A stretch of DNA of 64,000 nt. Origin: Floccularia luteovirens. Taxonomy: Eukaryota; Basidiomycota; Agaricomycetes; Agaricales; Squamanitaceae. The stretch covers positions 744,001 to 808,000 of the forward strand of contig VSJF01000008.1 in the NCBI GenBank assembly GCA_009739215.1, given 5' to 3'. Below, one piece after another: positions 30,099 to 39,746 of this stretch (position 1 is the stretch's first letter; every line of letters begins with the position of its first letter). The translations under genes and the position numbers were made by a program. Below the pieces are notes generated by a model. The model was not told where the DNA came from, ran no database searches, and was given only the letters and a program-made list of their open reading frames with translations.

Positions 30099-30255
30099 AT
30101 GGGTTCTTTCAATCTCATCGTAGCTGGTATCGAACAACTCCTTGCAACCAGGCAACCAACTGCCACAGATGCTGAGGAGATTAGATACTGAGGAGATTTA
30201 AAAGGATCATGAGGAAAACCCGGGCGACTCAACCAAGTTCTGTATTTTGGCTTGA
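30099..30255 (+). pseudogene. Degenerate lipopeptide pheromone precursor
   Basis: A decayed relative of the precursor at 31494. The 3' part reads KDHEENPGDSTKFCILA then stop (TGA 30253-30255), close to KDHEGNPGDTGGYCIVA of the intact copy and likewise ending in a CaaX box (Cys-Ile-Leu-Ala). An upstream ATG at 30099 opens MGSFNLIVAGIEQLLATRQP in another frame. Two lesions are visible: a near-perfect 16-nt tandem duplication (GAT[G/A]CTGAGGAGATT at 30168-30199), which shifts the frame, and an in-frame TAA at 30199-30201 just before KDHE. Discounting the 16 nt brings the ATG into the CaaX frame, supporting common origin, but the TAA would remain. No TATA box is seen upstream. Confidence 0.6.
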
Positions 30256-31391
30256 GCTCGTCAATGGGACCGCATTTCTTCTCATTTTTGTCAGATAGAT
30301 CTATTTTCTGCAATCCGCAACCTCGAAGCTAACCAACGTTCTTCTAATGACTCCTTTGGCAAATTGAAGATTGCCCTTTCAATTTGTTGGGTCTTGCCAG
30401 TTGGTTTCGGCACACATTATTCGTTCAATTCCCGCATCACTGCTTTATTAATCCCCCAGAAACTCATCTGTCACTACCCGCATATATTCCCTGGTAATAT
30501 TGCAGGGTTTGCGGTGGATGTCATTAAATTACTGGTGAATAGTTGTATACACAACGGATCATAATTACCTTCGAATTTTCTACAAATGATCTGCATGTTT
30601 CTTGATTATATTATATTAATTATTAGTTGCTGCAATTGATTCGATAGAAGTATGGCTTGTTCCAAGTTACATGACAAACTCGAGTTATAGATGTCCAGTA
30701 GCTAGTATGCACTTTTGCAACATCCTGCTTACGCCAATAATCCATATTTTACTATTTTAAGTTTGCCCTTACGGATGATTACTGTATTGTAGAGTTGCGT
30801 TTCTCAACTTCCACTCTTGTATCCCCATTTTTATCTATTGGACATGATAAGAATCATTTTAGATATGACGCGCAGACTGTTGTACCTGTGGTATGTTATT
30901 GTTATTAAACATAGAGAAGAAATTATTTACAAATTTATGTGTGTTAAAAATAACTCAGAAAACACCTCCTCGAGCTTATTGTCTACGCGAACTCGTAATT
31001 CGCTCATCTCACAAGGGTCTTTTGTATTCCACCTTCCTATCCGGTTACTCGCCCAAATGCGGAGCCCTTCTTATTGTTTTACGGGTCGACCTCTTCTTAT
31101 TGTTTTATCGGAGTCGATCTCTTATTGTTTTACAGGTTATTTTGGTGATGGCCCAATGTCGTTGCGTCGGATCAACTTGAAAGCCAGCAACTTGGAATAC
31201 ATGCCAATGTGTTGCAAACCCAAAAAAGCGAGTATGTATGATCAGTTCTATGGAGATGCGAAATGGCTTGGACCTTGATCAGGACCTCGTTCGGCCACAA
31301 CATGACAATTAGGGAGATACCCAAAATTAAGTCTGTAGAATGACTGTCCGATTTCTTGCTAATTGTTCAAGGAATGGTGTTCGCTGACTTG
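30256..31391. other. Intergenic stretch between pheromone copies
   Basis: No recognised gene. A 153-codon open frame at 30817-31278 has no family resemblance and runs through a tandem repeat, so it is not called. The rest is AT-rich sequence without visible structure. Confidence 0.45.
31066..31136. repeat. Short tandem repeat, about 27-bp unit, 2.7 copies
   Basis: The core CTTATTGTTTTA[C/T] occurs three times at a spacing of about 27 bp, followed in the first two units by CGGG/CGGAGTCGA-type sequence. It is degenerate and shows no coding role. Confidence 0.6.
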
Positions 31392-31399
31392 TATAAATA
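31392..31399 (+). promoter_or_regulatory. TATA box of pheromone precursor gene
   Basis: TATAAATA lies 95 bp upstream of the pheromone precursor ATG, a sensible distance for a fungal RNA polymerase II core promoter with a short 5' UTR. An ATTGTT hexamer, a possible HMG-box protein site, lies about 30 bp upstream of it, near 31362. That hexamer is common by chance and is only suggestive. Confidence 0.55.
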
Positions 31400-31493: not shown

Positions 31494-31625
31494 ATGGACT
31501 TCTACTTTCCCATCATCTCTATTATCAAAGAGACCCTCATGCCCGAAAACTCAGAAGCTGAGGAGATCCAGAAGGATCATGAGGGAAACCCAGGAGACAC
31601 AGGAGGTTACTGCATTGTGGCATGA
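31494..31625 (+). CDS. Lipopeptide mating pheromone precursor (CaaX)
   Basis: A 43-residue intronless open frame with all hallmarks of basidiomycete pheromone precursors. It begins MDFYFPIISIIKETLMPENS, has an acidic mid-section (EAEEIQKDHE) and ends GNPGDTGGYCIVA. Cys-Ile-Val-Ala is a CaaX box for farnesylation, removal of the last three residues and carboxymethylation. Processing of the N-terminal part near the charged KDHE would release a peptide of about 10-12 residues with a lipidated cysteine. A TATA box lies 95 bp upstream. A decayed relative at 30099-30255 shares KDHE.NPGD and a CaaX end, arguing that the frame is real. No Ste3-type receptor is visible in the window. The function is inferred from architecture; receptor specificity is unknown. 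Confidence 0.78.
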   Translation: MDFYFPIISIIKETLMPENSEAEEIQKDHEGNPGDTGGYCIVA

Positions 31626-37893: not shown

Positions 37894-39746
37894 TTACATT
37901 ATGATGCATGCCTGACTCGAGTTTAACCCCAATTCTGCGAGCTGTTCTTGGGTGGCTTCTCGTTCATTGCTCTTCAATTTTTCCCTAGACTCTTTAGGGA
38001 ACCAATCTTCCATGAAATTTAGCAGAGCCCAGTCTACATTTGCTTAAAAAGAGAGTCAATACGATCTCGCAAAAATGGTAATGACAAATTTTTACTTACA
38101 TTGGTCGGCAACTAGAACACATGGTGCACGACATATCGGACAATTGGCTTTACCACGTTTCTGCATCTTGACGAGGCAGCGCACACAAAAGAGGTGTCTA
38201 CAGTTTAGGCGAATTGGTTTGAATGCAATGCTGGTACATATGAGACAAGTATAATCATCAAGATGGGGGATGACTGGAAGAAGTTTTTCTCCAACAGCTT
38301 GTACTAGCAATCTTGGGAATGAAAGGACAGGCGGGTGGGAAACCAAAGCAAGTTGACTGGAAGAGAAATCAGAGGTAGAAAGAGAAAAGAAAACAGTTTC
38401 AGAAAGTCCGGGGAAAGGAAGAGAAGTTCGCTTGGCATGTTTCTTTAGAATCTTCCGCGTTCCTTCTGCATTGATATATGAAAACTATATGCAAGGAATT
38501 GGTCATTCATTAAGGAGTTTAGAAAACGAACAATCAGACCTTCTTGATATTGAGTATATAAAGGTTGATTGACAGGAATGTTTCTAACGCTTTCCTGCTT
38601 CCTTTGAGCTTGAAACTCTTGCCATCTCCTAGTTGTTCCATGGCCCTATCGGTAAAAAGTTTCAACCGTTTCTCGCTTTCCTCGAAAGACCGTTCACCGC
38701 GTGATATCTCGCTAACACTCTCAAATATCTCTGCCTCTATATACAATTGGAATATCTCTCGCCAGATATACAAGTCAGACTATCATGACAAGAAATCTTA
38801 GTGTGAATTATGAGGAAGTTCCAAATATAACTTACGGTAGTCAAATGTGATTTGTGCACGCGAACAGAACCTGGATGAGAGGTTAGACCTGAGTGTGGAT
38901 GGAATCGGGGATAAGTAGAAGCAGGTCGAGCAGAGTCACTTATTGTACGAGAAAGGTCTTCGAGGGTGGCGTTGAACTCTGCCTGCACACTGATTAGATG
39001 CAAAGACAGACTCTTAAGGGCATCAGAGAGCATTTGAAAAAATTCACTATCGGATAGAAGCGGTATAATCACGAATTCGTGGAGGTGTTTGTCATGAAGT
39101 GTTCTAGATGTGCCATCACTTTTTTAGACGTGAATACCTCAAGTGAGGAACAGTACACATGGGTACTCACGCCTGAGGTGGATCCATAGCTTCGTATTGA
39201 ATAAAAGACGTGTGATTTGTCGTTGTCAAACGGTGCGCAAACTCCGTAAGACGTGGAGATATTAGGTGTTCTACACCATCTACATCTTCGTCAGATCCTG
39301 ATCCGTCATCACTTCCGTGGATAATTTGACGTTCTTTGATTAGCGAAGGGTTATACTTTGGTATATCTAGAAAGAGTTTAAGGCGGGGTTCGATCCTGGT
39401 AGAACTACTCTTGAGTTCATATACCACTTTGGGTATCTGGGTTGTTCTAGCACTTCTGGCAGATTCGCAGGTGTGACCCGTTGCGTCCGCACTCCCATCA
39501 GGAAGTGGAAGACTCTCGGTAGAAGCGAAGAGGCTGTGTAATGTCGTGGGGGTTAGACCAAGTGAGGAGAGTTCTTCAACGACGGAATTAATGAGTTTCT
39601 TCAGCTAAATATTACAAGTCGGTTCAGCTGATGCATTTTATTCTAGCATGAGAATAATGACTTGCCTGTCGATATTCGATGGCGTTTTCGCGCATGTCAG
39701 GAGGTAAGCTGTTGAGCACCTGTGTGTAGGTTTTGGAGAAATGCAT
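37894..39746 (-). CDS. SPX-RING E3 ubiquitin ligase-like protein with C-terminal CaaX box
   Basis: The N-terminus MHFSKTYTQVLNSLPPDMRE begins an SPX domain, which in this family binds inositol pyrophosphates and senses phosphate. Later SPX landmarks are AEFNATLEDLSRTISDSARP, EESEKRLKLFTDRAMEQLGD and the basic helix NAEGTRKILKKHAKR. A C3HC4 RING follows: CLICTSIAFKPIRLNCRHLF, CVRCL and CPICRAPC. This order matches plant NLA, S. pombe Pqr1 and related SPX-RING ligases that control phosphate transporters. The last codons (37894-37908) read Cys-Ile-Ile-Met-stop, a good farnesylation CaaX box, suggesting membrane anchoring. Several short introns. It shares a convergent 3' boundary with the mtRF1 gene, about 155 bp apart. 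Confidence 0.88.

Follow-up and report, generated by a model that had tools for sequence, protein, structure and literature searches.

A 43-amino-acid open reading frame (ORF) of Floccularia luteovirens very probably encodes a precursor of the pheromone type, whether or not it belongs to the mating-type system. More specifically, it is probably a dispersed, non-mating-type lipopeptide precursor that lies off the main P/R locus. The ORF is at 31494-31625 (+) of the window, which is the whole 64,000-nucleotide stretch that we analyzed (C21:744001-808000; the genome has 27.0 Mb in 22 contigs). Coordinates without a contig name are those of the window. Dispersed pheromone-like precursors are already in print, and this ORF adds a new example.

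Translation confirmed the frame that a sequence-only reading of this DNA had proposed: a single exon encodes MDFYFPIISIIKETLMPENSEAEEIQKDHEGNPGDTGGYCIVA, followed by a stop codon, so the product ends in GGYCIVA. KDHE occupies residues 27-30, and the cysteine of the terminal CIVA is residue 40. The earlier reading had placed the acidic KDHE block 10-12 residues before the cysteine, and its final E is indeed 10 residues from the cysteine (and 13 from the C-terminus). The ORF has the length (about 35-100 aa) and the CaaX end of pheromone precursors, and KDHE supplies a charged or acidic pair 10-15 residues before the C-terminus. (The pairs DH and HE are outside the set ER/DR/EH/NH/EE/DE as quoted in PMC8305134.) A TATA box (TATAAATA) is present at 31392-31399 (+). 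The distance of 95 bp that had been given for it is correct if counted from the end of TATAAATA; from the start of TATAAA, at 31392, there are 102 bp to the ATG. The TATA box is mildly informative, because, across 264 kb of C21, 304 of the 5,460 ATGs on the plus strand have TATAWA at a similar position (-130 to -60).

We compared the ORFs in these 264 kb (the window and 200 kb on either side; ATG to stop, 25-120 aa) to those in 60 first-order Markov copies. A strict CaaX end was found in 4 of 2,058 ORFs, versus a mean of 3.5 in the Markov copies, so by itself this ending does not rise above chance. A start of the form M[DE].[FYWLIV] is present in two of the four as well (0.10 expected), and just one, the 43-aa ORF, also has a charged pair that precedes the cysteine by 8-12 residues (0.033 expected, or 2 of the 60 copies), although these joint features were chosen with the 43-aa ORF already in view. 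What puts the ORF clearly above chance is a degraded second copy at 30099-30255. The sequence-only reading had suggested looking for further CaaX micro-ORFs within 50 kb on either side, and the 264 kb contain three others. One of these (37894-38013, minus strand) is the other ORF with an M[DE] start; we rejected it as a pheromone, as it appears to form the final exon of a RING-finger gene. There is a RING-finger exon at 38104-38280 (-), and the apparent last exon that follows ends with ...SSQACIIM, which is a possible CaaX end on a RING-finger protein.

When we searched the genome with the 43-aa peptide, we found two places: the ORF itself and C21:774178-774252 (30178-30252 of the window; E = 0.0014, 56% identity over 25 aa, with one TAA inside). 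From the protein search, translation, and the list of ORFs, the second place is part of a degenerate tandem copy (30099-30255, plus strand), about 1.3 kb upstream of the intact ORF, which is split across two frames. It starts with MGSFNLIVAGIEQLL...DAEEI, and its tail reads TEEI, a stop, KDHEENPGDSTKFCILA, and another stop, which retains KDHE.NPGD and CILA-stop. The ATG at 30099 opens MGSFNLIVAGIEQLLATRQPTATDAEEIRY and then a stop, in a frame other than the tail's; the N-terminal similarity to the intact ORF is a judgement by eye. The copy is disrupted by an in-frame stop and by a frame-shifting 16-bp tandem duplication at 30167-30198 (+), which is where the frame is lost (2.0 copies with 93% match, from TRF). 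In ungapped scoring of the 264 kb, translated in six frames, the intact ORF scored 138, the tail of the degenerate copy scored 75, and the next place scored just 26. Over 26 codons, the two copies differ at 6, 6, and 10 sites by codon position (the first three codons are poorly aligned), but there are too few differences for this weakly codon-like pattern to prove coding constraint. DNA alignment of the regions around both copies gave short pieces alone among the matches listed, and there is no TATAWA within 300 bp upstream of the degenerate copy. Judging from their sequences, the intact ORF and the degenerate copy share a coding ancestor, and one of them has decayed. The neighboring copies, at 30099 and 31494, presumably arose by duplication.

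A Pfam scan of the 43-aa ORF found no families at E ≤ 10, not even PF08015, which describes the B-locus precursors (phb/Phe) of Agaricomycetes. PF08015 is not a strict criterion, because accepted precursors from Flammulina scored E = 0.0013-0.45 (PMC3140503), and the recognized precursor of this genome, on C22, is barely past the cut-off (23.5 vs. 22 bits). The sequence-only reading had also proposed aligning homologues from related species. We found none, in those or any other species, among about 5.8 billion proteins; the search required three common 5-residue words, so this is weak evidence, yet fungal receptors are well represented in the set. The one relative found to keep the motifs is the degenerate copy in the same genome. 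A PDB match (E = 1.5) to a designed-sounding protein was judged not to be meaningful.

A search of the genome for STE3-like receptors, which had been suggested as well, gave 24 exon matches to the PF02076 profile, and we grouped these into six genes. Four are on C22 (near 381-382, 385-387, 408-410, and 414-416 kb), one is on C14 (1289742-1290831, near 1290 kb), and one is on C21 (883522-884743, near 884 kb). The statement that no receptor gene lies nearby was correct for the window, but the nearest STE3 match is on the same contig, 107.9 kb downstream of the 43-aa ORF. PF08015 identified one precursor above the cut-off, at C22:383342-383518 (-), which adjoins STE3 genes. It encodes 58 aa, ends in CVIA, and has TATAAA at -90; as a query at E ≤ 10, it recovered itself alone in the genome. 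We dropped a sub-threshold match on C16 (19.9 bits, one TGA), which lacks a CaaX end. Around the receptors, we read C22:379805-402100, 407026-411002, and 413281-417274 (30.3 kb) and 3-kb loci on C14 for CaaX ends. Because four receptors and the recognized precursor are on C22, the main P/R-type cluster is elsewhere than C21. About 22 kb from this cluster, a pair of exons at C22:359.6-359.8 kb matches the PBD domain, as expected of a candidate PAK kinase; in Serpula, a PAK kinase is near the MAT-B cluster (PMC3564976). PBD matches were also found on C19 and C1, and weakly at C21:725171-725290, so this marker fails to single out C22. The HD locus is probably linked to neither C21 nor C22, since the Homeobox_KN domain was matched on C4 and C1.

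The 43-aa ORF resembles the B-locus precursors of Agaricomycetes in being a short ORF with an MD start, a CaaX end, and a charged pair located 10-15 residues from the C-terminus; such precursors are often overlooked by gene callers (PMC5473757, PMC5100862). It differs from them in having no adjacent receptor, no match to PF08015, and a decayed tandem copy. By eye, its glycine-rich mature part ending in YC is like the non-mating-type precursors of Coprinopsis, Laccaria, and Pycnoporus (the non-mating-type consensus given in PMC8305134 is GGGSGNGAYC or GGGSGNNAYC; the Pycnoporus precursors are presumed to be non-mating-type, PMC4101180). The residues themselves (GNPGDTGGYC) are different. Similarly, phb3.2 of Rhizopogon ends with GGYCVIS (PMC5473757), and the GGYC in common is a loose likeness by eye. 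The C22 precursor (...TTTTFCVIA) has the same MD start, A as the final residue, and a TATA box at a similar distance (-90 vs. -102), but no similarity is detectable beyond these motifs, and neither precursor recovers the other at E ≤ 10. Precursors away from receptors were foreseen for Flammulina (PMC3140503), and Serpula (PMC3564976) and Schizophyllum (PMC8161036) are described as having receptors that lack a neighboring precursor and are regarded as non-mating.

The two precursors also differ upstream. ACAAAGGGA is the pheromone response element of smuts (PMC3248468). It occurs four times in the 264 kb of C21, and another four times in what we scanned of C22 (roughly 29 kb) and C14 (3 kb), or about 8 times more densely at these pheromone-system loci. 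The latter four sites (C22:382874, 383817, and 408197; C14:1291059) are all near pheromone-system genes. One lies 299 bp before the ATG of the C22 precursor. The others precede the first STE3 match of a receptor gene, by 575 and 329 bp for two of the C22 receptors and by 228 bp for the C14 receptor (measured to the matches and not to mapped gene starts). In the loci scanned, ACAAAGGGA is absent at the other two C22 receptors. Pheromone-response control may be common to smuts and F. luteovirens. Near the 43-aa ORF and near the C21 receptor, there is no ACAAAGGGA, and ACAAAG is absent from the 1.1 kb upstream of the ORF. Instead, a possible upstream control element is formed by a 26-bp tandem unit at 31067-31137 (+; 2.8 copies, from TRF) that contains three CTTATTGTTTTA; there are exactly three in the 264 kb of C21, all inside this repeat. 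The reverse complement of CTTATTGTTTTA holds AACAAT, which we take to be an HMG-box-like core. Since ACAAAGGGA is lacking and the CTTATTGTTTTA repeat is there instead, co-regulation of the 43-aa ORF with the MAT genes is somewhat disfavored. The repeat sits inside a stop-to-stop frame without a Pfam match. A scan with bacterial promoter and terminator models, which are inapplicable to a fungus, found nothing.

Overall, the size, the MD start, the acidic block, the CaaX end with X = A, the TATA box, and the degraded paralogue with the same tail support the proposal that the ORF is a pheromone precursor. The sequence-only reading had left two options, a mating-type locus outside the window or a non-mating-type pheromone. 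We favor the latter, since the cluster that combines receptors with a precursor sits on another contig, and the ORF is outside that P/R locus. A mating-type or former mating-type pheromone, in a loosely linked second P/R sublocus with the C21 receptor 108 kb away, seems unlikely. With six introns (51-59 bases) removed, that receptor is open across the full STE3 profile (319 bits). It is also diverged: its identity is 56% with the C14 receptor and about 50% with the best of its relatives (among 120 listed of 549, many of them named Agaricomycete receptors). The B subloci of Flammulina are 177 kb apart (PMC3140503), and around the C21 receptor (C21:868-900 kb) there are eight unspliced ORFs of 20-120 aa with a loosely defined CaaX end, none of them pheromone-like by eye. 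On the other hand, the spacing from receptor to precursor in Flammulina is 0.3-2.1 kb (PMC3140503) instead of 108 kb, and receptors and precursors are usually close together, as cassettes (PMC5473757). The four-receptor cluster with its precursor on C22 and the absence of ACAAAGGGA from both the ORF and the C21 receptor also speak against a mating-type role. It is quite doubtful, too, that a second recognition system, unlinked to the first, resides at the C21 locus, comprising the tandem pheromone pair and the diverged STE3 of the C21/C14 pair, controlled by CTTATTGTTTTA and not by ACAAAGGGA, and either a relic or an active extra sublocus. If so, it would be an extra sublocus for self-recognition or growth.

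The other explanations do not involve a pheromone. CaaX ends are found on other proteins, as in the apparent RING-finger last exon ending in CIIM, but the ORF is very unlikely to encode a short prenylated protein with another function: its size, MD start, distance from acidic block to cysteine, and glycine-rich tail jointly fit precursors, and the Pfam scan found no other domain. We also give little credence to an untranslated chance ORF, or a relic like the neighboring copy. CaaX ORFs are about as frequent as expected by chance, the adjacent copy is broken, and the three-word search of about 5.8 billion proteins found no homologue in another species. However, the degenerate copy matches in frame across the motifs, the intact ORF retains its start, acidic block, and CaaX end, and its GC content by codon position is 0.50/0.34/0.57, while the surrounding stretch has 0.40. 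Finally, the frame stays open for 13 more codons above the ATG, with an acceptor-like ...ctctcaatactacag inside this extension, and the window's other CaaX ORF with an M[DE] start seems to be the terminal exon of a spliced gene. That the 43-aa ORF is such an exon is extremely unlikely, given the TATA box just upstream and the ATG at the matching place in the degenerate copy. Also, no Pfam domain was found in the long upstream frame (30844-31275).

If the ORF is a non-mating-type precursor, then under the described maturation rules of farnesylation, trimming, methylation, and a cut (PMC8305134, PMC8970355, PMC5100862), it would be farnesylated at Cys40, IVA would be removed, and the cysteine would be carboxymethylated. 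A cut near the KDHE block would release a farnesyl peptide of 11-12 aa, (H)EGNPGDTGGYC, which gives EGNPGDTGGYC and HEGNPGDTGGYC, farnesylated and carboxymethylated, as candidate mature peptides. The peptide would be exported and bind one STE3-class receptor of the same fungus, which would signal via the G-protein/MAPK pathway. We infer the processing, export, and receptor binding, as well as the non-mating role. The ligands, if any, of the non-mating-type STE3 receptors of mushrooms are described as unknown (PMC8305134), and this precursor, whose nearest receptor shares the contig at a distance of 108 kb, provides a directly testable candidate. The decayed copy suggests that such a gene has been caught in turnover, and the ORF illustrates how readily these genes slip past domain-based annotation.

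As for the receptors themselves, pairwise identities show that the C21 and C14 receptors, which are both off the C22 cluster, are closer to each other than to any other receptor of the genome. Among the same 120 listed of 549 relatives of the C21 receptor, one from Cyclocybe is 70% identical to the receptor C22D.
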